From Volutella citrinella (taxonomy: Eukaryota; Ascomycota; Sordariomycetes; Hypocreales; Nectriaceae): 64,000 nucleotides of DNA. Made by a program: the position numbers and the translations under genes. The stretch is from positions 186,001-250,000 of the forward strand of contig JAWZSP010000010.1 of assembly GCA_034401135.1 (NCBI GenBank), written 5' to 3'. The notes beneath the pieces were generated by a model that worked only from the letters and a program-made list of their open reading frames with translations, searched no databases and was not told where the DNA came from. Shown one piece after another: positions 1 to 61,845 of this stretch; position 1 is the stretch's first letter, and each line of letters opens with the position of its first letter.

Positions 1-497
1 ACCAGCACAGACGACTGGTCAACAAGCACAAGGTGATCGACACGGTGACGAGCATGGGGATACTGATCCCACCAGGCCCAGGTAATAGACGAACCCATCG
101 AATGCGCTACAATGCTTAGGTCCTTGAGGTCGAGCTTGTTCAGCAGGTCGTTCAAGTCTGCAGCGAAACGGGTAACACGATAGCCAAAGCTGGGCTTCTC
201 CGACTCGCCATGTCCACGCATGTCGTATGCTGTAACGCGATAGCCGGCGCAGCAGAAGTAGTCGACTTGCTTACGCCATTCAGCTGCGCTCTGGTGCCAT
301 CCTGGGATGAAGAGAATGTTCTGGCCATGCTTGGGCCCGCATTGTTTGTAGCTTAGATGGACTCCGTCTTGGGTTTCGACATGACCAGTATGTGTCGGAA
401 GAACTGTTGTCGTAGTGTGTGATCCTTTGACTCCGGCGTTCAAAGGAGATGCGAGAAGCACAGTGAAAAGGCCGGCGAGAAAGGGGAGGCTTTTCAT
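1..497 (-). CDS. Alpha/beta hydrolase with signal peptide, N-terminal part (cut by window edge)
   Basis: The reading frame opens with an ATG at 497 and runs without a break to the window edge, so the C-terminal half lies outside. The N-terminus (MKSLPFLAGLFTVLLAS) is a typical secretory signal peptide. It is followed by an alpha/beta-hydrolase fold: an oxyanion-region motif LFIPGWHQS, then DMRGHGES, then a nucleophile elbow AHSMGSS near residue 120, where Ser replaces the usual GxSxG context. Substrate unknown; the family covers esterases and epoxide or lactone hydrolases, and secretion is predicted. This is the left-arm twin of the copy at 22287-23209 on the other strand, and it retains the 16 bp that the right copy has lost. 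Within what is visible it is the functional version. Family call confident, function not. Confidence 0.85.
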   Translation of the reverse strand, partial: MKSLPFLAGLFTVLLASPLNAGVKGSHTTTTVLPTHTGHVETQDGVHLSYKQCGPKHGQNILFIPGWHQSAAEWRKQVDYFCCAGYRVTAYDMRGHGESEKPSFGYRVTRFAADLNDLLNKLDLKDLSIVAHSMGSSITWAWWDQYPHARHRVDHLVLVDQSSVL

Positions 498-1395
498 GTT
501 GGCAGGAGTGCTGTTGGGGTTTGGGATCTGTAGCCACTGTTGCTTGCTCAGTGAGGTATAAGATCGGCGGCAAGAGTGAAGAGGCGAGACAATATTTATA
601 GAATATCACGGAAATACACATACAGGTCTACCGCTGCTTATTCTCTTCATCCCCGATTACGAAAGCTAGCCTACCGAGGGATCAGTCCAGTTCAGGGGTA
701 GTGCATTCCTGACCCGGTAACGTAGCGATGATCCTTGTATCTCTGTGGCGGGTCGAGAGCCCGCTGGCCCCGCCACCTAGTTTAACGCTAATCGCTGCCA
801 CGTCGTATTTTCTAGGGTGCGAAGTCAGCTACTTTTCCAGCCAGAATGGCTCACTGTATTTGCGTCAGCCATGGGTCATCTCTCTCCATAGTTCCGGCCA
901 ACAGCGGTTCGGAATCCAAGAAAACCAGTTTATGCAAGGCGCGTATAATAGCTCTTGTACGAGCCATGTTATCCACAGTCATTTCTCTCATTGGTAATTT
1001 CACATTGGGCCCTTGTTGCTAACTCGACTCCCGCCCAGCCTCCCTCGCTCTAGGATCTGGCTTCGAGGACTTCCATTCTTCACACGACTGGGCGAAAGGC
1101 AAAGTCATAGAGTAACCACAATCGTTACCATTGAGCTCCCCTTGCTGAAGAAATGCTTTTATGGACTTTATTGCGCCAGGACAAGATATATACCATAACG
1201 TAGCGTCTAGGCGACGCCTGCGAGTATCCAAGTAAGGTCCTCCTGTATTAAAATCTTTCAGCCTTAAGACATCCATCCATTTCGTTTGTCCTAGTCCTGT
1301 CACATCTGATATCAGCATCACTTGCACTCACACAAGCGAAATGCGTGTTCCCTTTGCCGGCGGGGCCAACATACAACATTTTCGCATCTTGATTT
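498..1395. other. Intergenic DNA shared by both duplication arms
   Basis: This lies between the start of the hydrolase gene (497, minus strand) and the end of the receptor gene (1396, minus strand). No conserved coding signal is visible. The same sequence recurs inverted at about 21370-22286. Likely hydrolase promoter and receptor 3' region. Confidence 0.6.
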
Positions 1396-2754
1396 CTACA
1401 CCATCGAGCGCGAGCTTCCCGCGAGTTGGTCCTGACTCGAATTCCCTATCGTCGGCTGCATCTCGATAGATTCGACATCGACCCATGTTTCCTTGCGAAT
1501 CCCGGACAACGTCGTCGGCCCCCTGTTAGCCGTCGACCTTATCTCGCTCCAATGCGACTGATGTGTGGAAAGATTAAAGCCGGCATTGTCCGTGCGGCTT
1601 CTTGTGCGTGATGCTCTGCTGCCGTAGCTGTGGACCAAGGCCTGCTGGATAAACTCCCAAGGTAGCAGCTTGATGATTGGCCGCAGTGACGGTAGGCAGA
1701 TGCTGATGACGCCGCAGCAGTTCTCGACTATGGTCCAAACGACGGAATCATCCATTGGCCAGTTGATGGCGAATGTTGCAAAGTCGACAAGAATTATCAA
1801 GCGCAGGCGAATAATCGAAGTAATCACGACACTTTATGCATTTTCAGCTCCATATGCCCATATGAAGGTATAAGATTTAGGAAGAGTCGCTTACAATCCA
1901 CCAAGCAGGAAGAAGATGATAACGAAAGCCTTTTGGGTCGTGGTGATTTTGAGTGTCAACACCTGTGGTATAGGCAAGAGGACCAAACCCAAGTCGGCTA
2001 TGATATTCGGGATCGAGGTGCCGAAGAAGAAGCTATTCAAGTTGATGCACTTGACACCAGGTTGGGCTTGAGCGACAGGATCCCAGATTGCGTGAACAGG
2101 TATGCATTGGAGGATGGCGGTGATAATCTAGGAAAACAACGTCAGGGCCGCTTGCGCGCGGGTTGTATCGCCTTGGTCGCCGATAACTCACTGCTGCGAT
2201 AAACCAGAGAATGATGAGGCATCCCGAAACCTGGAGAGCCACTTTGAAATAGCTGGAAGTCGAGAAGACCCTCCAATAAAAGCACAAGATGGAGAACTTC
2301 AGTGTGAGTTGGTTGACGTAGTAAAACAGCTCGGCGACATAAGCGGCCTTTGTACCATAAATCATGAGCGGTACGTCGATTGCCTGCTTGCCATCCAAAA
2401 TAGCATCGCTCGGAAGACCTAGCAAGTTGAGAATTAAAATCCGGCCAACGTGGTCTGGGTTCTGAAGGGGAACTGCATACAAGCAAGGCTCGTTGCGCAA
2501 AAGCCCGTGGTCATCAACTGACGGGTTAGTTAGCCATTGTTCCAGTCTCTCACTGGTTCATCGCCACTTACCAGTGCGGTAACTGCCAGCCAGTCATCCC
2601 ACCAGAAGTTATTGTGGGATACCCGACGACTGACGAATCGCAAGCTCACAGCTAGGACAGCCAGAGGATAGCAGACCGCAAAGACGACGATGGTCCGCTT
2701 CCGGAAATCCCGTGTCATGTATTTGACGTCGGCAACGTCGAATTCACCCCCCAT
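1396..2754 (-). CDS. Rhodopsin-domain integral membrane protein, five exons (left copy)
   Basis: Spliced 371-aa product. Exons run 2754-2572, 2517-2481, 2418-2192, 2127-1895 and 1831-1396; introns are 54, 62, 64 and 63 bp, all GT-AG. Exon lengths (183, 37, 227, 233, 436) are identical to those of the right-arm copy, which supports the model. The protein has several hydrophobic segments, beginning with TIVVFAVCYPLAVLAVS, then NNFWWDDWLAVTAL and KFSILCFYWRVF. This is the pattern of the fungal rhodopsin domain family (Fung_rhodopsin, PTH11-like GPCRs without the CFEM module). The tail is Ser/Thr-rich and cytosolic by analogy. Role inferred: plasma-membrane receptor or sensor of unknown ligand. 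No premature stop is seen. The intron 4 acceptor is a weaker AAAG. Confidence 0.82.
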
Positions 2755-3770
2755 TTTGATACTGTGCAGATGCCAACTTGCAATGGGCACGCCAGTCCAG
2801 TCAAGCAGAATTTTACGTCGAGGACCCAACTTTTCAAGGTTTGCATCTTCGAATATTGCTTTATCAAGGGTCTTGTTCTGCGCGACCCCTTTGCTGTGCC
2901 AAGCCGTCCTCTTCTCTCGGGGCGGAAGGGGGGGGAGGCCTGGCTTGTCTCGGCACAGATACGACTACGGAATAGGAGGAGGTAGATTTGTCAAAGTTCA
3001 CAAGCGCATCGTCAAATTGTTAGAATTCGGTAGCGCAAATTAATGGGCGAAACCGCGACCCTCGCCATGAAAGCCGGATGAAGCTAAAAGCATAAAGGGC
3101 TACGATTCAGGGGTCGATCACACTCCCCCCGCTTCTTGCGAAGTTATGTGGCGTAATGTGCCGCTATTTATTCAGCAGAGATACTCAATCTAGGAGAGCA
3201 GTAGAAGGATGAGAATAGGGATTACTAACACAATCCGACCAGAACGAAATGCGGTGGCAGTCAGCCACTACGAACTCGGCAGCCGGCGCGGCAGCCGGCG
3301 GTTCACTGCTAGACATGGGGACGCAAACACTCTGTCCAGGATCCATCCCATCCTTCCACGGCGCGGAGGGCGAGCCGGGGACTTGCGTTACTATCATTCA
3401 AGGGTGGTCAATGTCACTAGGATATTTGAGGATTGTGGCGTCCGGCGCATCCCATTTGTCAAAAGCAAACTACTGCCGAAGGTTTTCTCCGCGAAAGTCT
3501 CGCATCCCTCGTTGCGCAGTGGCGCTTAAAGTAGCCTAGCGCTCTTGGGGGGCTGCATTTTTGAGTTTCTTAGCATTGATTATGAGCTGATTCATTCCAC
3601 CACACAGGCTAGAGTCCCGCTAATGTCGTCCAAAAGACAATATTCCGGTCGCGTTGTCAGCATCGCACATAAGCGCTGTCAGTGCATGCGAGGCAAAATT
3701 GGAACCAGAGTCGCCTTCGGCGCCGAGCACACCCCACACTTCTCTAGCCGTGGTTGGGATAATCTGGCTA
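2755..3770. other. Receptor 5' region and end of the duplicated arm
   Basis: No gene recognised. 2755-3460 is homologous to 19310-20020 in inverted orientation and should hold the promoter of the receptor gene. From about 3460 the arms diverge. 3460-3770 shows only short overlapping frames with no family signature. Confidence 0.5.
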
Positions 3771-5203
3771 ACGCCACACATTAGCCAAGGTTGCCATATT
3801 GACTAGTGATTGTCTACTTCCCCCATCATCGGGGCTGCCACAACTGTCCAAAAATCCTGGGCCGTGGCGCCCTGGCGCCCTGACCAGCCGGCAACTCGGC
3901 CCGAAGCCGCGCGTGTGTTATCCTGGCATGAGAGCAGCGGATTATGGACAAGCTGATCATTGTGCAACCGGGAAATTAGATTGTCTAGAGTCATTTCTTG
4001 GTTGGTACGATCCTGGCTTCTGTATTTGAGTGGCTTCTGAAATATCTTTCTCTGCCAGCCCGATATGGCTTGCGTAGTTTGGCTTATTTCGATCCAGGAT
4101 GCAGAACATAAAGGTGGGGTGTGCGCAGGTCTCCCAAATAAAGATGCTCCGGCGGCGGCCCGTGTTGGCATATGTGATCGACAGCAGCGCGGGTGCCCGC
4201 ATCGGCGGGGCCGGCGAGACGTGTATGAGCGTTGCCATCCGCTGGAGGAATTCCTGGACATGCGCTTCGTGTAGAGCCATGGTTGTTGGGCATAGCGACA
4301 ATGTACTGCTCTCGAGTTCGCCAAGCCCGGGCCGTCCCGCTCGGCCGCTTCAGGACCCGGTTCGTCCCCATGGTCGTCGGTATATTTTATCCCTTGCTCT
4401 TACGCCTGCTGTCATCATCGTAGCGCCGCCGTATGAATGTGTTCCTTAGCTCTTCCCTTCCCTCGATCTGCCGGAGCAGGGCGTCTTGCGTGCCTTGCAG
4501 TATCTCCCTATTGCGGACGTCTGTCAGCCAGGAGCTGCCCGTAGCCGTCGGAGTCGATGTCGTCCTGCACCCTCCACGCCTCGATTGGCGTAATGTCCGT
4601 CGCCCCGAATAGCAGCTTGTCATAGAGAAGCGAGTGTGCCTGGCGGAACTCCGACACGAGCATCTGCGACACCTGTTCTAGCTGCAACCTGGTCCCCATG
4701 TAGTCGAACGAGCGACCGTCGAGGGACCAGCGGGCCTGGTTCTTTGCGATGGCCGCCCGCGAGACCGCGAAGAGGTAGAGCCGCCACTGCAGTATGTGGC
4801 CAAACGGCGTCTCGGCCATCTGCTGGAAGTACTTGCCACAGAGCCTCCCTAAGAGATCCGGAATCCCATCTTCGTCATCCTGCCTCTGGAAGCAGACGAA
4901 GTCGAAGAGGAGCAGCTGTGCTGTCCACGTCATCGCCGAGAGGCTGCTGTTGAAGTTTCCCGGCTCATGCCAGGTTTCGTAGAGCCGCCGCTCTGCGCTC
5001 TCACCGTCGGCTACGCCCTCCCGAGCTGAGGCCTTACGGCTAAGCATAGCACAGAAGCTGAGCACGGGTGATCGGAAGGGTCTACTCCCGACCTTCTGAC
5101 ATACCAGGGCAATGTAGAATTTACGGACAGCATACTCCAGCTGGATGCTCGGCAGCCCTTCGGCCTTCACCACATCCCCCGCCTCCACTGCATCATCCTG
5201 TTG
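3771..5203. repeat. Direct duplication of a DUF3505/TLH gene segment, copy 1
   Basis: Nearly the same sequence recurs in the same orientation at 54798-56143. Shared landmarks are AACGCCACACATTAGCCAAG at the left end and the run before CATCATCCTGT at the right end. Small indels distinguish the copies; for example, copy 2 lacks several short blocks around 3865-3950 and 4190-4220. Confidence 0.88.
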
Positions 5204-6289
5204 CTGCAATGCATCGATGATCTCATCCATGGCTTCCTGCTGGCGCCCTATCGGCTCGATGACGTCCCGAGGCAGCGCTTGATCGACTGCCCGTTGTGTA
5301 AAGTGCCCGCCCTCCTGATGGACGACTCGGTAATAGTAGGCAAGCAGCTGCTTCATCCTCCTGAAGTACGTCGTCAGCGTCGATGGGTTCTTGAAACAGC
5401 GGAAGGCCGCCTGCCTACCGCCACCCCTTGACCCTTTGCCGGGCCCTTCGGCGGCAAAGTCGCTGAGCAGCTTCGCCCGCTGCTGTGTCATTTTGCGCTC
5501 CGGCGATCGGTCACTGCAGAGCCGGTAGGCGCCTTCCAGGACGGTTTGGGCCGCGTTTAGCATCCGCTCGAGGTCCGGGTCCTCCCCTCTTGCTGGCAGC
5601 CGATACGACGACTTGATCTCGGCATCCTGGAGCCCCTGCAGGTGACCGGGGAAACCGGTATAGACGAGCCACGGCTCCCTGTTAGCCCTACCGGCGGCGG
5701 ATGTGTCGGGTCCCTGCACGGCTGCGGCCTTGGCGTCCAGGTCGTTGCCGGCCTTGTTGATATCCTCCCTCAGCTGGGCAAACAACTCGCCCTCTAGAGG
5801 CAACGGCCGTTGCGGGTTCTGTACATCGGCTGCCGCAACGATGAAGTAGTCGATACGCCCCTTCGCAGTGAGGTAGGTCTGTAGGAGGCATGCCCGCCAG
5901 AGATGCGTGTTGTCCCGGTGCTGCGACGCCTTCCTGCCATGCCTTGCCATATGGCTGTGCATCTTGGCCAGCAGCCGGGTGCAGTAGCGGCCGCAGTCCG
6001 CCTTGTCGTCCGCGCAGCAGCAGTAGTAGCCTTCGTATACGGCTAGGCCGGCGATCGGCTTGCATGGCGATGCACGGCTAGGCCGGTGCTACCTTAGTTC
6101 GTCTATCGAGCGCAGCGTATACCCTGCCAGGAGCTTGACGGTCTCTTTGAGCCCGTCGCCGCGTAGCCGGTGCGGCTCGGCCCGCAGGCGGCTCGCGAGG
6201 CTGTTTGGCTTCGACACAAGGCAGGTTGCGCACTGCCGGCAGACGACAACCTGATGGCCCGGGTTGTAGGTAAACTGCCCGAGCCCCAT
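4084..6289 (-). pseudogene. DUF3505 / OrsD-like, telomere-linked-helicase-type gene, disrupted
   Basis: The protein begins at an ATG at 6289 with a zinc-finger-like stretch (QVVVCRQCATCLV), followed by a second Cys-rich segment (VYEGYYCCCADD...DCGRYC) and then LLAKMHSHMARHGRK. This is the DUF3505 arrangement of OrsD-like and telomere-linked-helicase proteins. One in-frame TAG at 6091-6089 separates codons 1-66 from a 484-codon open stretch (to 4508); CAG to TAG would explain it. A frameshift near 4530 moves the reading to TDVRNREILQGTQDALL. A stop and another shift near 4380 lead to LLSITYANTGRRRSIFIWE, also typical of this family. The helicase part is not downstream on this strand but lies divergently at 6600-7620. 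Role in intact homologues is unclear; they are often subtelomeric. Not functional as it stands. Confidence 0.8.
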
Positions 6290-19309: not shown

Positions 19310-22300
19310 TTGATCACGGGAAGCGCTGGACGCCACAATCCTCAAATATCCTAGTGGAATTGACAACCTTTCAATGAAAGTAACGCAAGTTCCTGGAGGG
19401 TGTCGGGCGGTGATGGATCCTGGACAGAGTGGTGCGTCCCCATGTCTAGCAGCGAACCGCCGGCTCCCTAGTTCTTAGTGGCTGACTGCCACCGCATTAC
19501 GTTCAGGTCGGATTTGTTAGCAATCCCTGTTCTTATCATTATGCTATTCTACTAGATTGAGGATCTCTGGAAGATGAGTAGCGGCAAATTACGCCACATT
19601 ACTTCGCAAGAAGCCGGGAGAGTGTCATCGACCGCCGAACCGTCGCTCTTTATGCTTGAGGGTCGCAGTTTCACCAACTCGCCTAATAATTTGCGCTACC
19701 GAACTCTAACGATTTGACGATACGCTGACGGACTTTGACGAATCTACCTCCTCCTATTCCGCAGTAGCATCCATGCTCAGACAAGCCAGGCATCCCCTCC
19801 CTGTAAGCTATGTACTATGTGTCAAAGAAGTGGCGCCTTATTCAGCCCCTCCCCCAGAAAAAGAAAACGGCGTGGCACATCAAAGGGGTGCGCAGAACAA
19901 GACCTCTGATAAAGTAATATTCGAAAATGCAAACAATTAAAAAGTTGGGTCCTCAACGTGAAATCCTGCCTGGCCGGACTGGCGTGCCTATTGCAAGTTC
20001 GCATCTGCACGCTATCAAAGATGGCGCGTGAACTCAACGTTGCCGGCGTCAAATACATGACACGGGGTTTCCGGGAGCGGACCATTGTCGTCTTTGCGGT
20101 ATGCTATCCTCTGGCTGTCCTAGCTGTGAGCTTGCGATTCGTCAGTCGTCGGGTATCCCACAATAACTTCTGGTGGGATGACTGGCTGGCAGTTACTGCA
20201 CTGGTAAGTGATGATGAACCGGTGAGAAACTGGGACAATGGCTAACTAACCCGTCAGTTGGTGACCGCGGGCTTTTGTGTAACGAACCTTACTTGTATGC
20301 AATTCCCCTTCAGAACCCAGACCACGTTGGCCGGGTTTTAATTCTCACCTTGCTAGGTCTTCCGAGCGATGCTATTTTGGATGGCAAGCAGGCAATCGAC
20401 ATGCCGCTCATGATTTACAATACAAAGGCCGCTTATGTCGCCGAGCTCTTTTACTACGTCAACCAACTCACCCTGAAGTTCTCCATCTTGTGCTTTTATT
20501 GGAGGGTCTTCTCGACTACAAGCTATTTCAAAGTGGCTCTCAAGGTTACGGGATGCCTCATCATCCTCTGGTTTATCGCATCAGTGGGTTATCGGCGACC
20601 AAGGCGAGCGCAACCGGCCCTGACGTTGTTTTCCTAGATTATCACCGCCATCCTCCAATGCATACCTGTTCACGCAATCTGGGATCATGTCGCTCAAGCC
20701 CAACCTGGCGTCAAGTGTATCAACTTGAATAGCTTCTTTTTCGGTACCTCGATCCCGAACATTATGACCGACTTGGTTTTGGTCCTCTTGCCCATACAGC
20801 AGGTGTTGAGACTCAAAATCACCACGACCCAAAAGGTTTTCGTCACCATTTTCTTCCTACTGGGCGGATTGTAAGCTCATCTTCCCAATATTTTACATTT
20901 ATATAGGCACATGTAGCTGAACATGCATACAGCGTCGTGATTACTTCGATTATACGCCTGCGCCTGCTAGTTCTTGTCGACTTTACAACATTCGCCATCA
21001 ACTGGCCAATGGATGATTCCGTCGTTTGGACCATAGTCGAGAACTGCTGCGGCGTCATCAGTATCTGCCTACCGTCACTGGGGCCAATCATCAAGCTGCT
21101 ACCTTGGGCGTTTACCCAGCAGGCCTTGGGCCGCAGCTACGGCAGCACAGCATCACACACAAGAAGCCGCACGGACAATACCAGTTTTAATCTGTCCACA
21201 CATCAATCGCATTGGACCGAGATAAGGTCGACGACCAACAGGGCGCCGACGACGTTGTCTGGGATTCACAAGGAAACACGGGTCGACGTCGAATCTATCG
21301 AGACGCAGCCGACGACGGGGAATTCGAGTCAGGACCAACTCGCGGGAGGCTCGCGCTCGATGGTGTAGAAATTAATGTGCGAAGATGTTGTATTTTGGCC
21401 CCGATGGCAAAGCGAACATGCATTTCACTTGTGTGGGCGCAAGTGATACTAACATCAGATGTGCCAGAAGACTGGGACAAACGAAATGGATTGATATCTT
21501 AGCGTTGAAATATTTTTATACAGGAGGACCTTACTTGGATACTCGTAGGCGTCGCCTAGACGTTACGTTAATGGTATATATCTTGTCGTGGCGCAACAAT
21601 GTCCGTGCATTTCTTCAGCAAGGGGAGCTCAATGGTAACGATTGAGGTTACTCTATGACTTTGCCTTTCGCTCAGTCGCGTGAAGAATATGAAAGTCCTC
21701 GAAGCCAGATCCTCAGAGCGGGAGCCAGAGCGAGGGAGGCAGGGCGGGAGTCGAGTTAGCAACGAGGGGTCGATGTGAAATTACCAATGAGAGAAATGAC
21801 TGTGGATAACATGGCTCGTACAAGAACTATTATACGCGGCTTGCATAAACTGGGTTTCTTGGATTCCGAACCGCTGTTGGTCGGAACTGTGGGAGAGAGA
21901 TGGCCGATGGCTGACTCAAATGCAGTGAGCCATTCTGGGCTGGAAATGAAGGTGACTTCGCACCCTAGACAATACGACGTGGCAGCGTATTAGCGTTGGG
22001 CTAGGTGACGGGACCAGCGGGCTCTCGACCTGACCACAGAGATACAGGGATCACCGCAAGGTAACCGGGTCTAGAATGCATTACCCACCCCCCCATGAAC
22101 CAGACTGATCCCTCGGCAGGCTGGCTTTCGTAATCGGGGATGAATAGAATAAACAGCGGTAGGACTGTGCATTTCCGTGACATTATAAATATTGTCTCCC
22201 CTCTTCCCTCTTCCCGCCGATCTCATACCTAACTGAGCAAGCAACATTGGCTACAGCAGCCAACCCCAACAGCCACTCCTGCCAACATGAAAAGCCTCCT

Positions 22301-22768
22301 CTTTCTCGCCGGCCTTTTCACAGTGCTTCTCGCATCTCATTTGAACGCCGAAGTGGAAGGATCGCGCACTACGACAATCGCTGTTCCGACACATACTGGT
22401 CAGGTCGAAACCCAAGACGGAGTCCACCTAAGTTACAAACAATGCGGGCCCAAGCATGGCCAGAACATTCTCTTCATCCCAGGCTGGCATCAGAGCGCAG
22501 CTGAATGGCGCAAGCAAGTCGACTACTTCGCGTTACAGCATACGACATGCGTGGACATGGCGAGTCGGAGAAGCCCAGCTTTGGCTATCGTGTTACCCGT
22601 TTCGCTGCAGACTTGAACGACCTGCTGAACAAGCTCGACCTCAAGGACCTAAGCATTGTAGCGCATTCGATGGGTTCGTCTATTACCTGGGCCTGGTGGG
22701 ATCAGTATCCCCATGCTCGTCACCGTGTCGATCACCTTGTGCTTGTTGACCAGTCGTCTGTGCTGGTG
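19310..22768. repeat. Right arm of the inverted segmental duplication
   Basis: Reverse complement of about 1-3460, carrying a receptor and a hydrolase copy. Homology continues past 22768 only in sequence whose partner lies beyond the left window edge. Arms are separated by about 15.9 kb of unrelated DNA. Confidence 0.9.
20021..21368 (+). CDS. Rhodopsin-domain integral membrane protein, five exons (right copy)
   Basis: Exons 20021-20203, 20258-20294, 20357-20583, 20638-20870 and 20933-21368 join to 371 codons, with the same exon lengths as the left copy. Introns begin GTAAGT, GTATGC, GTGGGT and GTAAGC and end in AG; intron 1 has a GCTAACTAACC branch region. Donor 3 (GTGGGT) is weaker than the left copy's GTGAGT. 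Membrane segments and the SILCFYWRVF and ILQCIPVHAIWDH motifs match fungal rhodopsin-domain, PTH11-like receptors. Amino-acid differences from the left copy are scattered (for example VTAGFCVTNL against MTTGFCATSL), with none truncating. Likely membrane receptor; ligand unknown. Start chosen at 20021 because it aligns with the left copy's ATG; an in-frame ATG also exists further upstream. Confidence 0.82.
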
Positions 22769-37026: not shown

Positions 37027-37036
37027 CCCCTACTAC
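37027..37036. repeat. LINE target-site duplication, left copy
   Basis: CCCCTACTAC here and at 42509-42518 flank the LINE. The match may extend one more base (A). Confidence 0.85.
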
Positions 37037-37351
37037 ACACACACACACACAATTTATTACGCCCGGTGGCTCACAGCCAATAGGGCACTATTTGCTATAG
37101 TACATACTTGGTTCCACAATTTAGTCATATCTCCTCGTAGCCCTTACAGACGTCCAATTTCGGCCTCTGTGTCCTTATCTCTTCATCTTTCCCTATCCCC
37201 GCGAGGGAAATATTGTATTGCCAGCAAGCATACTTGAAGCCGATTCTCCAAGTGTCCAGAGTCCTATCTACGGCGACTGAAGCGGCGCCTGCTGTCCCAC
37301 GACGAGATAGTCGCTTTAGGGTAGGTTAGTAAAAAGGAATGTCAGTCCAAT

Positions 37352-40300
37352 TTAGGTCCCGTGCTGCGCATTATCAAAACGCCCTGTGGCAATGACAAAC
37401 CGAATCGTTGCATGGACAGCCTGCATACTGGGTGTCCATTTTTCGTCGTCCGAAGGTGATTTACCCCCTAGAAAGAATGATAGATTCCCTCTCTGTGTGT
37501 TTGTGCACTTGTAGAGTTCAGCTCGGTATTGGGTCCATTTTTGGCACCGAAAGAGGAAGTGGTCGACCGTTTCTGCCGCCTGTCCACATGCGCACACCTG
37601 TGACGGTGCTGCCATGATCCGGAAAAGATACCCGTTCAACCTGTTCATGCCTGTCCTGAGCTGTGCTAGTATGCTGGCCTCTTTCCATGACAACTTGTCG
37701 TACAGCTGCCGCGTGTGTTTACCGGGTAGTGCATTATCGATCTTCTTGGAAAAATTTCCTACCTTATCTGGGAGTCCGTCACTAGTGGCTTGACGTGCCC
37801 GTGCAATGTTGAGGGTCGTAGACCGCATGCCGGGGAACTTGAGTGTCGGGCTGGCATCATCTCGGGTCGCCTTCAGTGCTAGACGTTTGGCCTGTACAAG
37901 GAGTCTGTGTTGATCGCTGGTTGGCATCCATATGATAGCTACCGTATTTCCCCTTTCCTTTTGTATCTCGAGTGAGTCATAGGCACAGCGAACAAACTCT
38001 TGGCCTGACTGTTGGCGAGGGTTACCCATGGTCAATGCGGCGGCTTTATTGCTCGTTAACACTGCGATGCTGCGATATCTCATGTCAGGCAAATGCCGGA
38101 AGGCGTAGGCCATCGCCGCAAGCTCAGCTGAGAATGGGTTCTGCTCCGCTCTCATACCCAGTGTGAAGGAGAACGTTTCGAGCCTGGGCCCTCCTCGCAC
38201 CGAGACAGGGATGTCGATGACTCCACCAAATCCTACAACGTCATTACGCGCAGAGCTGCGCACTGCAATGCGAACTGACCAGCCCAGGTCTGTCTGCCGT
38301 GACCGTGACACGTCGTCTTCCTCGATGATGGTCTGTATCCGTTTTGCCCAGGGCGCTAATATGAATGGGTCGATTGTCTCTAGCTCCTCCATCGGTATAG
38401 CATTGAGTTCGACCGCAATCTCATAAAACGGCGAGCGATGAAATCTCCTAAACTTTCGGATGCAAGATGTGGCTCTGCGGAGGGGGTTTGTCGATGGCAA
38501 GGTATGGAGATCGGTCCACATCTTAACCGCTCGCCTCCAAAACCGGTCCTGCACGCTTATGATATGCGCCTCCGCCTCAGCTACCCACGTTGCCACCGTG
38601 AGAAACGTCCCCACAATCGCTTGCGCACCAACCCTCTGGACTCGATTCACCGGGCCTATCCTCTTATACCTGCATGCGTGCATCCAGACATTAGAGGCGT
38701 AGTCAACGGCTGGGGCCACCATGGTCGTGAATAGCCGTCTCGCTGTCGCGGGGGTAAGGCCCCTCAGTCGCTGTAGTTCCATGGCTGCCTCTAGGCCCCT
38801 GGTGGCCGCACGAGCAATGTGCTCTCGATACCTCAGCCCTGCGTCTAGGATCATTCCGAGGACCTTGACCCGATCTGTAGGCTGGACCCTTTGACCTCTG
38901 ATCATAAATGGCTCTGAATCGGACACATGTGCCCTACGGGATGGGACAAAGTGGATGATCGCCGTCTTCTCTGCCTCAAAGGTTGCTCCACTTCGCTTCT
39001 CCCAGTCAAGGGCTCTTGCTATGATCGACTCTATGCCCGTGCGATTGCTCTTCGCCGTGGGCCCCGTGACCCACGCCGTGTAATCGTCCACGAATGCTAT
39101 GGAGCCTCCGTAGCAATCAATTCGCTGCTGCACCAGATCCGCGTTGAAGAACAGAAACAGGATAGGCGACAACGGCGAGCCTTGCGGCAATCCCGCTTGT
39201 GGTAGAGTTCGCTTCTCTGACGCCTGTCCGTTGACACGAATGGTCGCGGTACGATCGGTGCAAAAGGCGTCAATCCACTTCAGCAACCCCTCGGGGATGC
39301 CTCTTGCTCTCATTCTCTGGAGAAGCCTTTCTTTGCACACTCCATTGTAGGCCCCCTTAACATCAAAGCTAATCAAGCTAAGAACTCGCCGGCCCCGCCA
39401 GGCAGCATAGATCTGCTCCTGCAGCAATACCAACGCCTGCTCAGCGGACCGCTGTTTTCGAGCCCCGAAATGGTTCGTGGGCAGCAGCCCGTAAGTCTCC
39501 ACAGCATGCGAGATTCTCTCAGCGATAACTGCCTCCAACACTTTACCCAGAGTGGAGAGAAGGGATATCGGCCTCCACGCCTTGGCAATGGTGTAGTCTC
39601 CCTTATTTGGCTTCTTAAGTGGAATAATGCCAGCGTGCCTCCACTGCTTTGGCAGGATGCCATCGTCCAGTGATTTTCGGAACAACAACAACACTGCGTG
39701 CTTCACTGTCGGCCAAACCTGCTTCCAGACAATCGAGGGTAGTCCGTCTTCACCTGGTGCCTTCCATGACTTCGCGGCGAAGAGTTGACGCTCTACCTCC
39801 TCCATGGTGATGGGAGGCATGCTAACGGCTGATTCACGCTGGGGCCTCTCTCCTTCTTCCTCGATACCCTCAGGTAGTGGAGGGAAGAAGGTGTTTAACA
39901 TTTCTTCTGTTTGCTCTGCCCTGCTGGACGTGCGCGTGCCGTCTGTTCTCACAAGCTGGGGAACCTTGCCAAATGCTGAGTCGTCCCCTGACTTGAGATA
40001 TTTTGCCGCCTTCCAAATGTTTTCGTTGTCTGCAAGGAACTCCTCCCAGTGCGCCTTTTTCTGCTGTCTGATTGCATCGTGGTATTGCTTTGCCGCTCCC
40101 TTGGCTGTGTTCTCCAATTCCTCGTTGATTTGGCCTGCTCTTCTTGAGGCCCTGGCACGGTTTCTCCAAAACGTGTAGATCCGCCGCAGTTGTGTTAGGT
40201 CAGACGTCCACCAACGTTTCGCATGGGACGATGGTCTAGCCTTCGGCGTTAACACGCGAACCGCCTCCAGTACCACAGCCATGAGCCTGTCCGTCCCCTG

Positions 40301-41140
40301 CTGCACACTGCCGGCTACTGGAGCTGCTTCCAATGCTTTGGCGATCCGGGCGTTGATCGCTTTCCATGGCGCGTTCTTGAGTAACAGCCGCTCGCTAGTC
40401 TGCCGCTGCGGGACTGATATATCAAACTCTGTTTCGATAGCTCGGTGATCGGATCCATGCTCCGTTCTGTGAACCGAGCACTTGACCATAGCGGCAGCCA
40501 GGTCCTCGGAAGCCAGCGTGAGATCGATTGTTGACTCGTGCTCTCCGCCCTGCCAGGTCTTCGTGCCCCTCTGCAGTAGGCTACTAAGGGAGAATTCGTT
40601 CATGAGGTCGATGATAAGGTCTGCCTCCCCTTGTCTCTCCAGCAACACGTCATCCCCTCCCCACAGCTGATCGTGGCGATTGAAGTCCCCCGCAACCACA
40701 ACATGCACTGGTATTCCCGCATTCCGCCTTGTGTCTCTGATAGCGTCCCGTATATCGGTGCATGCTCTCTGTAATGCATCGCTGTCATGCCCCTGGACGT
40801 ACACGGAGAGCACTAATACTAGGTGTTCCGGAAGGCGTATCAGCGCTGCGGTTATGTCTGAGGACTCGATCGGTACTTGCTCCGCTTCCAGGTCGTTCCT
40901 GATCCATAGCATGCTTCGTATTGCCCATCGTCCCTCCTCCTCATATAGTGATGGCACCATCTTTGTCCGTTGGTGATGATTCATAGGCGTGGCCAGAAGT
41001 CGACCTTTAATTCTTCTTGCTTGTGGTTCCTGGATTGCTAACACCGCTACCTCTCGAATGTCCTTGTCGTTCATCAAGCTTTCGTGGACTTCTTCTCGTT
41101 TACGTACATTGAGTTGAATTATTCGGAAGGTGCTACTCAT
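37352..41140 (-). CDS. LINE ORF2: endonuclease / reverse transcriptase / RNase H-like, 1262 aa
   Basis: One uninterrupted frame from ATG at 41140. Residues 1-230 are an exonuclease-endonuclease-phosphatase domain: [22 protein letters not shown] and HGSDHRAI carry the catalytic Asn, Glu, Asp and His. Reverse transcriptase follows: [45 protein letters not shown] and AFVDDYTAW, the last equivalent to YADD. An RNase H-like fold near residues 950-1080 retains [10 protein letters not shown], but [12 protein letters not shown] lacks the usual Asp (TDS). A C-terminal zinc motif [17 protein letters not shown] is present. The start overlaps the end of ORF1 by 8 nt (41133-41140), suggesting coupled translation. 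No premature stop. Its product would nick target DNA and copy element RNA. Confidence 0.95.
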
Positions 41141-42413
41141 GCGGCGAGGGCAAAAGCCTCCTGCAATTTCTACTAAACGATTCGTGGGGCCCTCCGCAGA
41201 GCGCGCACTTAGGGGTGCCTTCAGTGCACGCGCGGTGGTGATGGCCTACCTGCGCGCATCTTCCACAGACTTGGGGTTCGCCACACTGGAAAGCCTTATG
41301 GCCGATTTGTTGGCATTGGTAACACTGGTTTGTGCGCGGCCTGCGCTCGAATACGCTGGTATTGCCAGATTCTCCTGCGGCGGAGAAGAAGCCTTCGGAC
41401 AGCAGTCTTCTGAAGTCAGAGCTTTTGCTGAGGTAAACAACCATGGAGCCGTATGCTTTTCCGTTATCTCTTTTACTAAGTCATCCTATTTTCGCAATTT
41501 GTGCATCGTTTTCCTTTCCTAGAGCCTCAGCAGCCTCCTGGCGAATGTTGCCTGTGGGGTCCAGTACTGCCATGCGGTTGACATTGTCCACTTTGATTGG
41601 GTAGAGTTCGTCTCTCAATATCCTGGCGCCTCGTGCCAGATTCGTTTCTAGCAACTTCTTCACCGCCTGGTGTTCATTCGCATCCCTACATAGAATCCTG
41701 ATCCGATTTGGGTCCTTCCAGTCCCTGATAACAGCCTGGCAGCGCCAGTTCGACTGTCCTGGTCCAGCTCGCATCCCCCGTTCTGCGGTTGTCCGAAGAG
41801 CGCTTGCTGAGACTAGCCCCTTGTCTGCCCCCCCTACCCTGGAGATGTCAATTGTGCAGTGAATTTGATCAGCGTCCCTCGCTGGCTGGGCCCTGGTGGG
41901 CGGGGTCGCACTGGGTCCGGACGAAGGTGACGACCGAGTGACGTCAGCATATGAGCTGTGCGGGGTAGTTGCTGGACTCATGGTGATAGCTTCAAGTTGG
42001 CCTTGAATACGCTGTAGCTCACTAGTCATCCGTTCCTTAGTGTTTTTTAGTTGCCCACTTAGGTCTTGGATCATGTTTTGATTCTGGTTCGTTGTTTCTT
42101 TCAGCTGTTGAATTTCCTGTCGTTGAATGCGGATGGTTTCGCTCTGCTGCTCGATAACCTCCTTCATCCCCTGGAACTGGGCACTACACTGGCCTAGCAG
42201 CGCCAGCGCTTCCTGAAACATCGTTCTGTCTTCGTTCTCGTTACCCTCGTCTCTGCGCAGATGTCCAGACGCATGTTCAATGCCGTCTGCAGGAATCGTT
42301 CCTGCAGCTCTCGTTGCGGCCCTTGTTGCATACCGGCTGCCCTCACGCAATCCATTTGCCTCGTCGATCTTCCGTTTCTGCCGTTTCACCGGGTTGCGGC
42401 CGAGCGGCCCCAC
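41133..42413 (-). pseudogene. LINE ORF1 (gag-like) with one in-frame TGA
   Basis: A single frame covers a basic N-terminus, a coiled coil (SAQFQGMKEVIEQQSET... through about residue 130), an RNA-binding-like central domain and, after TGA at 41483-41481, CCHC-type zinc knuckles ([43 protein letters not shown]). The TGA stands in ...AKIG-stop-LSKRDNG; Trp (TGG) is the likely original. No ATG is seen near the 5' end of the frame: the upstream stop at about 42431 is followed by GTG at 42413, and the first in-frame ATG comes later. Either a non-ATG start or a degraded 5' end. ORF1 proteins bind the element RNA. Confidence 0.85.
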
Positions 42414-42508
42414 TCCGGCTCCACTAGCTTAAAAGTTGTCAATGGTAAATTAAAGATGATTTTCAGAATTATTCCCTGGTTCAATCACTCGGGATCCTTC
42501 CCTTTTCT

Positions 42509-44454: not shown

Positions 44455-44468
44455 CGGTTACCTCATTT
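44455..44468. repeat. 14-bp target-site duplication, left copy
   Basis: CGGTTACCTCATTT, identical to 45325-45338. Confidence 0.92.
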
Positions 44469-45324
44469 GGAAGATAATTCGACAAGCCCGTGCGAACACA
44501 CAGCCTCATATATACACAATAGAAACCACAGCAAATTTCACAGTAGATGTCATGCCCAACATCTCAACCACAGCGTTTGTCCAGTATGAGTCACAAGTAG
44601 CATTTGACAGATGCAGCAACTGGCGGCCTCCTTGTCCATCAAGGTCTCTGCACCACGAAAGGTTGTTGGGAAGTTGCGATGAACGCACATCAGAGTTTCC
44701 AACCTTTGTGGCCGCAGGCGCAAGGACAAAGCTATCCATGCCGGATGACCCAACGGCGGGCTTGCGCCAGCTATATCATAATGCCTTTCCCCCATCTCGT
44801 CAAGCAAGCAGCCAAGCAAGCCAACGCCCGCACACACACACACACACCTCTCCCATCTGCCATCACCTAACGACCTCGAGATGCCGCAACCTATCAACGT
44901 TCCCTTTATCTCTAAGGGCCTTCTCTCAGAGAAACCAATCAACTTCAAGCTGCCAGCTAAAAGCCCGAACCCACGAGACATCCCAACCAATAATAACGCA
45001 CTACCCGACGAGGTGCTAATACGCCTCTTGAAATTTGGATATCGCTTATTAGATAAGGAAGTCAGCAAGGAGGCTAAGGAAAGCATCAACTTCCTGGATT
45101 CAGAAGAAGATGGCCTGAAGAAGGATATCCTTTCTAAGATCAGGAGGAAAAACAAGGATTGGCTGAAGAAGCTGGTGGAAGTTGCCCGGAAGCTGCAGCA
45201 GAAGGCACACAACAAGCAACAATAGGGATACGCCTAGCTTGATAGGACAATTTAAACCACCATTCGCCTAATCTGTCAAAATTTCACAATTCGTAGTATC
45301 ACAATTATGTTCCCTCGTAGAGGG
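44469..45324 (+). mobile_element. Unrecognised 856-bp mobile element, copy 1
   Basis: Termini are GGAAGATAAT... and ...GTTCCCTCGTAGAGGG, the latter a 5-bp hairpin (CCCTC-GTA-GAGGG). There are no terminal inverted repeats and no poly(A). It is flanked by exact 14-bp duplications and inserted in the cyclin gene. Inside are a CA microsatellite near 44828-44845 and a 114-codon frame. A second copy at 61095-61845 has the same ends and a different 14-bp duplication. Class unknown; a LINE-mobilised passenger is one possibility. Confidence 0.85.
44881..45225 (+). CDS. 114-aa Lys-rich protein encoded inside the mobile element
   Basis: ATG at 44881, stop at 45225. The N-terminus MPQPINVPFISKGLLSEKP is followed by a Pro-rich segment, then a charged helical part (LIRLLKFGYRLLDKEVSKEA) and a strongly basic C-terminus (SKIRRKNKDWLKKLVEVARK). 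No known domain recognised. In the 61-kb copy the start (MPLINAPFISK) and the basic end (WVKKLVEVVEKLQKKARNK) are conserved but an internal deletion breaks the frame. The nearest thing in character is a small nucleic-acid-binding protein, which is inference only. The start could lie further upstream if spliced. Confidence 0.55.
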   Translation: MPQPINVPFISKGLLSEKPINFKLPAKSPNPRDIPTNNNALPDEVLIRLLKFGYRLLDKEVSKEAKESINFLDSEEDGLKKDILSKIRRKNKDWLKKLVEVARKLQQKAHNKQQ

Positions 45325-45338
45325 CGGTTACCTCATTT
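45325..45338. repeat. 14-bp target-site duplication, right copy
   Basis: CGGTTACCTCATTT. The cyclin frame resumes directly after it. Confidence 0.92.
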
Positions 45339-54640: not shown

Positions 54641-54797
54641 TGCAAGCCGCCATTGCGAGTCCCTTGAAAGCCCGGCTTGACCGGCGACCCGGTCGTCGGG
54701 GGCCCGCTCGTCAACGCCTCTTAGATCAAGTGGCCAAGGTACAAGCCCCGGTACCCGACTTCTCTTAGGCAGGCCCTATTAAATCGAGGTGGCCAAC

Positions 54798-56143
54798 GCC
54801 ACACATTAGCCAAGGTTGCCATTATTGACTAGTGCTTGTCTAATTCCTCCATCATCGGGGCTGCCACAACTGTCCAAAAATCCTGAGCCAGCTGCAGCCC
54901 TGGCGCCCTGACCAGCCGGCAACCGGATTATGGACAACCTGATCATTGTACAACCGGGAAATTAGCTTGTCTAGGGTCATTCCTTGGTTGGTACGATCCT
55001 GGCTTCTGTATTTGAGTGGCTTCTGAAATATCTTTCTCTGTCAGTCCGATATGGCTTGCGTAGTAGGGCTTATTTCAATCCAGGATGCAGAACATGAAGG
55101 TGGGGTGTCTCGCAGGTCTCCCAAATAAAGATACTCCGGCGGCCCGTGTCGGCATATGGGCCGGCGAGACGTGTATGAGCGTCGCCATCCGCTGTAGGAA
55201 TTCCTGGACGTGCGCTTCGTATAGAGCCATGGCTGGTGGGCATAGCGACAATGTTCCTGCTCTCGAGTTCGCCAGGCCCGGGCCGTCCCGCTCGGCCGCT
55301 TCAGGACCCGGTTCGTCCCTATGGTCATCAGTATTTTTCGTTCCCTTGCTCTTACGCCTGCTATCGTCGACGTAGGCCCGCCGTATGAATGTTTTTCCTT
55401 AGCTCCTCCCTTCCCTCGATCTGCCGGAGCAGGGCGTCTTGCGTGCCTTGCAGTATCTCCCTATTGCGGACGTCTGAGCCAGGAGCTGCCGTAGTCTTCG
55501 GAGTCGATGTCGTCCTGCATCCCCCACGCCTCGATTGGCGTAATGTCTGTCGCCCCGAAGAGCAGCTTGTCATGGAGAAGCGAGTGTGCCTGGCGGAACT
55601 CCGACACGAGCATCTGCGACACCTGTTCCAGCTGCAACCTGGTCCCCATGTACTCGAACGAGCGACCGTCGAGGGACCAGCGGGCCTGGTTCTTTGCGAT
55701 GGCCGCCCGCGAAACTGCGAAGAGGTAGAGCCGCCACTGGAGTGTGTGGCCAAACGGCGTCTCGGCCCTCTGCTGGAAGTACTTGCCACAGAGCCTCCCT
55801 AGGAGACCCGGAATCCCATCTTCGTCATCCTGCCTCTGGAAGCAGACGAAGTCGAAGAGGAGCAGCTGTGCTGTCCACGTCATCGCCGAGAGGCTGCTGT
55901 TCAAGTTTCCCGGCTCAAGCCAGGTTCCGTAGAGCCGCTGCTCTGCGCCCTCCCGAGCTGAGGCCTTGCGGCTAAGCATAGCACAGAAGCTGAGCATGGG
56001 GGATTGGAAGGGTTTGCTCCCGACCTTCTGACAGACTAGGGCAATATAAAATTTTCGGATAGCATGCTCCAGCTCGATGCTAAGCAGCCCCTCCGCCTTC
56101 ACCACATCCCCCCGCCTCCACTGCATCATCCTGTCGCTGATCA
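54798..56143. repeat. Direct duplication of a DUF3505/TLH gene segment, copy 2
   Basis: Same orientation and near-identical to 3771-5203, with several short deletions. Homology ends abruptly at about 56143, after CTGCATCATCCTGT. Confidence 0.88.
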
Positions 56144-61094: not shown

Positions 61095-61845
61095 CCCTCT
61101 ACGAGGGAACATAATTGTGATACTACGAATTGTGAAATTTTGACAGATGAGGCGACTGGTGGTTTGAATTGCCCTATCAAGCTAGGCCCCTATCGCTGCT
61201 TGTTGCGTGCCTTCTTCTGCAGCTTCTCCACCACTTCCACCAGCTTCTTCACCCAATCACCGTTCTTCTCCCTGATCCTGGAAAGGATATCCTTCTTCAG
61301 GCCTTCCTTTCCTGTCCGTAGGAAGTGATCGTTTTCTCTGAGAGAAGACCCTTTTTAGAGATAAAGGGAGCGTTGATTAGTGGCATCTCGAGGTCGTTGG
61401 GTGACGAAGTGGCAGGCGGGAGAAGTGTGTGTGTGTGTGTGCGGGCGTTGGCTTGCTTGGCTGCTGGCTAGTTGCTTGCTTGGCTGCTTGCTTGACGAGG
61501 CACTTCTCAAAGAAGCTGGGGGAATGGCATTATGATATAGCTGGCGCAAGCCCGCCGTTGGGTCATCCGGCGTGGATAACTTTGTCCTTGCGCCTGCGGC
61601 CACAAAGGTTGGAAACTCTGAAGTGCTGCAGGTTCATCGCAACCTTCCTACAACCTTTGGTGGTGCAGAGACCTTGATGGACAAGAAGGCCGCCATTTGC
61701 TGCATCTGTCAAATGATAATTGTGACTCATTACGGACTAACACTGTGGTTGAGATGTTGGGTATGACATCTACTGTGAAATTTGCTGTGGTTTCTATTGT
61801 GTATATATCAGGCTGTGTGTTGCACGGGCTTGTTGACTATCTTCC
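61095..61845 (-). mobile_element. Unrecognised mobile element, copy 2 (751 bp)
   Basis: Reverse complement of the element at 44469-45324. It has the same GGAAGAT start and CCCTCGTAGAGGG end and a GT microsatellite near 61424-61441, but an internal deletion of about 110 bp in the reading frame and one A inserted after ISK. Flanked by exact 14-bp duplications that differ from those of copy 1. Confidence 0.87.

Follow-up and report, generated by a model that had tools for sequence, protein, structure and literature searches.

The window, that is the whole analysed stretch of 64,000 nucleotides, lies on C10, a contig of 778 kb in a genome of 45 Mb and 26 contigs. At positions 44455-44468 and 45325-45338 it carries the same 14 bases, CGGTTACCTCATTT, and between them lies a unit of 856 bp (44469-45324), which on the plus strand begins with GGAAGATA and terminates in TTCCCTCGTAGAGGG. 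The features of the locus, with RNA ends and strands as predicted from the analysis below, are as follows.

44469..45324, minus strand (RNA sense): probable retrocopy unit of 856 bp, predicted RNA 5' end at 45324 and 3' end at 44469
44455..44468, no strand: target-site duplication on the side of the RNA 3' end, perfect over 14 bp
45325..45338, no strand: target-site duplication on the side of the RNA 5' end, perfect over 14 bp
44469..44476, minus strand: predicted RNA 3' terminus TATCTTCC, without poly(A) after it; kept in truncated copies too
45312..45324, minus strand: CCCTCTACGAGGG, the 'hairpin', predicted RNA 5' end, originating in the final codons of the reverse-transcriptase gene at C6
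45305..45307, minus strand: TAA, matching the stop codon of the reverse-transcriptase gene at C6; 17 nt of the unit precede it
44881..45225, plus strand: 114-codon frame, running antisense to the spliced RNA; relatives were not found in the protein collection
61095..61845, plus strand: another copy within the window (L030), with an internal deletion and flanked by a duplication of 14-15 bp
37035..42417, minus strand: LINE (endonuclease-reverse transcriptase) with a (GT)n 3' end; the span is that of the match to its copy L080

A sequence-only reading of this DNA had described a mobile unit with exact 14-bp duplications, a 114-codon frame and a terminal hairpin, without terminal inverted repeats or poly(A), and had found no element class to name for it. 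The exact duplications and the frame at 44881-45225 are present as described. No end-to-end terminal inverted repeat was found in the 50-base ends either (GGAAGATA against CCCTCTAC): their best local score was 9, a value equalled in 48 of 1000 shuffles. A poly(A) or simple-repeat tail is likewise absent, the duplication following directly after TATCTTCC in the full-length copies. Such tails are common in LINE-type retroposons but not universal. Elsewhere in the window an inverted repeat pair (1-3453 and 19318-22767) and a further long repeat pair (3765-5206 and 54790-56139) were observed, each 86-87% alike.

The unit belongs to a dispersed family. A blastn search of its own genome, with 40 of 100 candidates scored, returned at least 49 match rows, at least 14 of them spanning query positions 1-856, and these were spread over contigs C1-C6 and C8-C11. 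C10, a small and repeat-rich contig that may be an accessory chromosome, carries 17 of the at least 49 rows. Both ends also recur by themselves. The GGAAGATA end was present at 41 genome sites with up to two mismatches, at least one of which (L101) is not a unit, and at 90 sites with up to three mismatches, compared to 25 for the reversed control; the 25-base hairpin end was present at 31 sites with up to three mismatches, compared to none for the control. Around unit matches and end motifs 57 stretches were taken, and in 46 rows, among them those of the window copy and of the source locus described below, the GGAAGATA end could be analysed. L031 consists of an outer copy plus a nested copy bounded on either side by ATATTGGTTGGGAT, and the site of the nested copy is seen empty in L019 and L020. 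The DNA upstream of L019, L020 and the outer L031 copy shows segmental duplication within C10, without a duplication of the insertion. L019, L020 and L031, together with L102-L104, lie in C10 blocks more than 99% alike, in each of which a LINE 3'-end match lies about 5 kb from a variant unit. In L092 a unit is placed inside another unit in the opposite orientation.

A duplication of at least 11 bp was detected near the junction in 30 of the 46 rows, and in 24 rows it was exact, with a length of 13-16 bp. LINE-type retroposons have target-site duplications that vary in length around 7-20 bp. An exact match of at least 10 bases was obtained for 26 of 46 true pairings of flanks and for 1 of 2070 mispaired ones. 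Sixteen rows showed no duplication by this test (L013, L019, L020, L029, L031, L032, L035, L039, L041, L044, L045, L047, L094, L095, L097 and L079); L032, inspected by eye, does carry one with two mismatches, and the stretch around L097 is incomplete. The mobility suggested by the sequence-only reading was thus borne out by the genome search, which found many copies with both ends and their own duplications of about 14 bp, and not copies whose ends differed or whose duplications were lacking throughout.

The distribution of the duplications differs between the two ends. They accompany 18 of the 20 rows that extend to the hairpin end and 12 of the 26 rows that have the GGAAGATA end but lack the hairpin end. 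Since the 46 rows had been picked for their GGAAGATA end, the opposite class, with hairpin end but no GGAAGATA end, was checked too (L018, L040, L043, L085-L089 and L091): a duplication of even 8 bp was seen in none of these nine, some of whose stretches are short and two of which (L087 and L089) have matches that end less than 25 nt from the unit end. In target-primed reverse transcription the 3' end of the RNA is constant and the 5' end is lost. That the duplications survive loss of the hairpin end, but not of the GGAAGATA end, argues that the RNA corresponds to the minus strand. Read in this way, the RNA would run from 5' CCCTCTACGAGGG to TATCTTCC 3', with the GGAAGATA side as its 3' end, the reverse of the orientation in which the unit had been presented. 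In RNA sense, AT directly follows the unit in 41 of the 46 rows, and the base before the duplication is T or C in 29 of 30; the preferred insertion site is hence mostly Y|AT, a nick-site preference. L093, L094 and L098 are truncated identically, within 1-2 bases, at unit position 778-779, and two of them carry duplications; this shared break is a hot spot for template ends or stops.

A version of the unit of 1350 bp was found at C6:392246-393595 (L079). Compared to the window copy it contains seven extra stretches of 56, 122, 56, 61, 62, 60 and 58 nt, all of which run GT...AG on the minus strand. Several have CTAAC- or CTAAT-like motifs ahead of the acceptor, which we take to be branch sites. 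The exons total 875 nt, and among the matches listed in the genome search the unit matches break at the intron borders of L079. In 25 aligned copies the intron is removed in 118 of 126 covered junction cells and part of an intron is retained in the remaining 8. The same 46-50 nt of intron 2 are retained in L011, L015, L017, L018 and L021, and this portion reads as an alternative exon. L030 and L020 retain 9-10 nt of intron, and the apparent retention of intron 5 in L031 is a repeat misalignment. Intron 5 adjoins a repeat and is uncovered in 24 of the 25 aligned copies; it was therefore read by pattern, which showed it gone wherever a place was readable (18 of 18), one acceptor having been used 12 times and another 6 times. 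The aligned copies are, on this evidence, spliced, with alternative isoforms among them. A genome search with intron 2 found it complete only at C6, with 45-46 nt of it matched in five other copies; searched alone, it revealed no second intron-bearing source.

We conclude that the unit is almost certainly a retrocopy of a spliced RNA from the C6 locus, whose integration proceeded by target-primed reverse transcription and relied on an endonuclease and reverse transcriptase of LINE type. The family consists of tail-less LINE-type retrocopies made from spliced RNA of a single source locus and is not a new class of transposon; the earlier failure to name a class came from setting LINE-type retrocopies aside for lack of a tail. 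The hairpin at one end and the ends common to many copies might suggest a DNA transposon or a Helitron-like element that terminates in a hairpin. Such an element would not, however, lose introns precisely from its copies, show one-sided truncation with duplications retained, or lack a clear terminal inverted repeat, and its hairpin would not be coding sequence at the source. With the spliced copies alone already refuting it, we give this explanation practically no credence. A known RNA family was also sought, and the window together with L079 gave no Rfam match at gathering score.

The 114-codon frame had been listed among the features of the unit, and the unit as a mobile gene for a 114-residue plus-strand protein has some features in its favor. 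Variable columns are distributed over the codon positions as 36/38/53 within the frame, compared to 35/46/34 outside, and dN/dS ranges from 0.26 to 1.41, mostly 0.38-0.60, in 15 pairs, although with few sequences and overlapping frames this decides nothing. The overlapping RNA-sense frame, however, yields similar values (0.28-1.08 in 21 pairs, from equally few sequences and equally indecisive), and transversion columns within the 114-codon frame are distributed as 13/12/16. Neither frame has relatives in the protein collection at an E value of 0.001, and the 114-codon frame has no Pfam match above cut-off and is interrupted by early stops in many copies. Moreover, the seven introns lie on the opposite strand, to which the frame is antisense. 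A plus-strand gene is thus very unlikely, and both frames were rejected as genes; as far as the frames can be judged, we see no good case for a protein from the unit.

The C6 locus is very probably the direct source of two copies, L010 and L025, because their differences from its exons are almost only of the type produced by repeat-induced point mutation (RIP). L025 differs by 77 C>T/G>A changes and no others over 880 sites, and L010 by 14 such changes plus one other over 873 sites. In L025, 20 of 28 C>T changes precede A and 39 of 49 G>A changes follow T, a context that we take as the mark of RIP. A tree built from transversions gave branch lengths of zero for L010, L025 and L079, while the tree from all changes paired L010 with L079 and placed L025 among other C>T/G>A-rich copies. 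For intron 5, the acceptor used in L010 is not the one used in L025. Most other copies are not close to the present source, the window copy included, which differs from the C6 exons by 12.1% with balanced changes. Older or other versions of the source are therefore needed to explain them.

Directly upstream of the C6 unit, on the same strand, lies an endonuclease-reverse-transcriptase gene with matches to Pfam RVT_1 and Exo_endo_phos_2 (L079:3077-7169, minus strand). Its two open pieces are colinear with one Monosporascus protein, matching residues 77-894 and 896-1213 with 46% and 40% identity, and the DNA that separates them reads as a putative GC-AG intron. The N-terminal start (M-A/S-P-P-H) is also like that of a Monosporascus protein. 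Named relatives of a reverse transcriptase of this genome belong to Monosporascus, Fusarium, Colletotrichum and Clonostachys, and the genome was accordingly taken as that of a filamentous ascomycete. The C6 gene ends in the codons TCC CTC TAC GAG GGA ACA TAA. The hairpin that had been regarded as a signature of the element is made of these codons, and thus represents the end of the upstream gene at the RNA 5' end. Within the genome the final 2.5 kb of the gene match only themselves, coding DNA of the gene was not found elsewhere in the genome, and none of the examined copies carries more than 3 bases of the gene upstream of CCCTC. This single-copy, intron-bearing gene is possibly domesticated. 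The copied part lies beyond its stop codon, and no recognisable protein from that part was found.

At C6 the unit follows directly on the stop codon and has an imperfect copy of ATAA(A)TTGTGATAC on either side. The flanks are ATAATTGTGATAC, which overlaps the stop codon, and ATAAATTGTGATAC, which stands right after TATCTTCC. Their duplication contains one indel and begins with the AT of the family, and it scores 11 compared to at most 8 in 45 control flanks. An intron-bearing unit would therefore once have inserted behind the stop codon. A donor for this unspliced insertion was not found in the genome search with intron 2. Full-length copies carry the last 17 coding bases of the gene, its stop codon and the remainder of the C6 duplication.

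The start of these copies is fixed. Of the 18 full-length copies with a recognised duplication (L029 and L079, which lack one by the test, were left out), 16 have it directly against the first C of CCCTC, which lies 17 nt ahead of the stop codon. The other two, L016 and L025, start at -18 with one extra T, which is the base of the source at that position. In yeast, mRNA-decay ends with a 5' phosphate are reported at -17 nt when a ribosome stands at the stop codon, according to the available part of that study (PMC9017187). This start and the reported decay ends together lead us to propose, with the reservation that the -17 fit was spotted after the fact, that the template was an mRNA trimmed up to the terminating ribosome. 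Exon junctions at C6 lie 22, 77, 163, 432, 527, 641 and 725 nt downstream of the stop codon. Introns in the 3' UTR have reportedly been dealt with in fungi by Zhang and Sachs in 2015. Nonsense-mediated decay is connected with exon-junction complexes on junctions 50 nt or more downstream, and in Neurospora the complex takes part in this decay, as stated in the accessible text of the source (PMC6173133).

The mechanism that we propose would then be as follows. The mRNA of the C6 gene, with seven introns in its 3' UTR, would be the RNA from which the template derives, and the C6 protein would be the enzyme. Owing to the seven-intron 3' UTR, the mRNA would be a target of nonsense-mediated decay and would be trimmed 5'-3' to the ribosome terminating at the stop codon, leaving a 5' end at -17. 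The freshly released enzyme would integrate the spliced 3' UTR remnant of its own mRNA, reverse transcription starting at TATCTTCC next to AT, so that poly(A) would not be copied. The mobile element would consist of a ribosome footprint plus the 3' UTR, and the C6 gene itself would stay put. A decay-trimmed template would account for the fixed start, the splicing, the one-base heterogeneity and the absence of coding copies. We nevertheless regard it as a tentative suggestion, rather less probable than not, that 5'-3' decay running as far as the terminating ribosome produces the template 5' end, and hold the same reserve for the wider idea that a single-copy LINE-type gene copies a decaying remnant of its own messenger and not itself.

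The main rival to a decay template is a promoter within the end of the gene. The template would in that case be an independent spliced noncoding RNA that starts at CCCTC, and the 17-nt spacing would be coincidental. A fixed 5' end such as that shared by 16 of 18 copies is what a transcription start should give, and coding copies of the gene are expected to be absent if the RNA never includes the coding part. Transcription start sites follow a pyrimidine-purine initiator rule. The start here would be T|C and does not conform to it, and a local promoter accounts neither for a spacing of exactly -17 nor for the in-frame end of the gene. On balance we consider the chances of this explanation to be about even.

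The C6 protein is a natural candidate for the mobilising enzyme, because it is encoded by the same RNA and cis-preference is described for L1 in the accessible part of one report (PMC1965478). That the C6 mRNA is the precursor of the template and the C6 protein the enzyme appears to us evenly balanced between likely and unlikely. The same retroposition could instead have been carried out by the LINE of the C10 window or by a LINE now lost, which seems quite possible, if short of an even chance. The C10 LINE is long and intact over a 1262-codon frame, has a second, near-identical copy (L080, 98.8%), and its copies likewise insert before A or AT; at L013 a unit is joined head-to-head with an antisense LINE 3' end. 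Against this candidate, the 9 matches to its 3' end are confined to C10, whereas units occur on C1-C6 and C8-C11, and its (GT)n 3' end is unlike TATCTTCC. The joint with the C10 LINE 3' end at L013:120-390 looks like the product of two RNAs copied at a single target, one from each nick. A LINE with the 3' end of the unit was not found among those checked (the C6 gene, the C10 LINE, L081, L083 and L084), with 38 reverse-transcriptase places listed in the genome. L081 is a Gypsy-type element, L083 a telomerase-like frame as judged by eye, and L084 a reverse transcriptase without a Pfam endonuclease match. In L084, positions 1508-2593 match Pfam DDE_Tnp_1_7, with the reverse-transcriptase frame 1 kb on (3589-5418).

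A dispersed, tail-less 'element' without a known partner LINE has thus been traced to one intron-bearing source, the splice isoforms of which are frozen as DNA in the copies. If the -17 start reflects decay behind the terminating ribosome, the copies would be a genomic record of co-translational mRNA decay. Nonsense-mediated decay would then be tied to retroposition, and it would be suggested how a reverse transcriptase acts in cis on its own mRNA at termination. Retrocopy starts 17 nt before a stop codon are a signature that can be searched for in other genomes. In the titles and opening parts of abstracts of the openly licensed literature, we found no description of spliced, tail-less retrocopy families with a fixed start before a stop codon, which is weak evidence of novelty.

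The family shares with processed pseudogenes the removal of introns, the duplications of 13-16 bp and the truncation on the RNA 5' side. Unlike these, the unit lacks poly(A) and has a fixed internal 3' end, and a single locus has given rise to the entire family, the 5' end of which is constant and adjoins a stop codon. SINEs originate from polymerase III RNAs (tRNA, 5S or 7SL). SINEs such as Mg-SINE are similarly non-autonomous with a defined 3' end, as far as the accessible text describes them (PMC2104539), whereas the source of the unit has spliceosomal introns and no Rfam match, and a partner LINE 3' end was not found among the LINEs checked. Also comparable is WEIRD / MINE of Magnaporthe, in which LINE machinery copied a noncoding RNA of this fungus, about 1.1 kb long; the direct repeats measure 10-20 bp, 14 bp in one case (available part of PMC2104539). 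WEIRD copies are reported there as fused 3' to LINE sequence, with the source gene not found, and 'intron' and 'splic' have no occurrences in the available text. The RNA of the unit, by comparison, would prime with its own 3' end, an intron-bearing source has been found, and the full-length copies end in TATCTTCC plus duplication without a 3' LINE fusion of this type. Sadhu of Arabidopsis is likewise noncoding, about 900 bp long and present in tens of copies with duplications of 7-16 bp, and its mobilising enzyme is given as unknown (PMC2848041, as far as the text is available). Sadhu has a poly(A) tract and the 5' motif CAATCGTTSC, whereas the unit starts with CCCTCTACGAGGG and lacks poly(A); 'intron' and 'spliced' do not occur in the available text on Sadhu (PMC2848041). 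Finally, the intermediates of co-translational 5'-3' decay likewise have their 5' end at -17, in the portion of the study at hand (PMC9017187), but these are RNAs in yeast, whereas here such an end is deduced from genomic copies.
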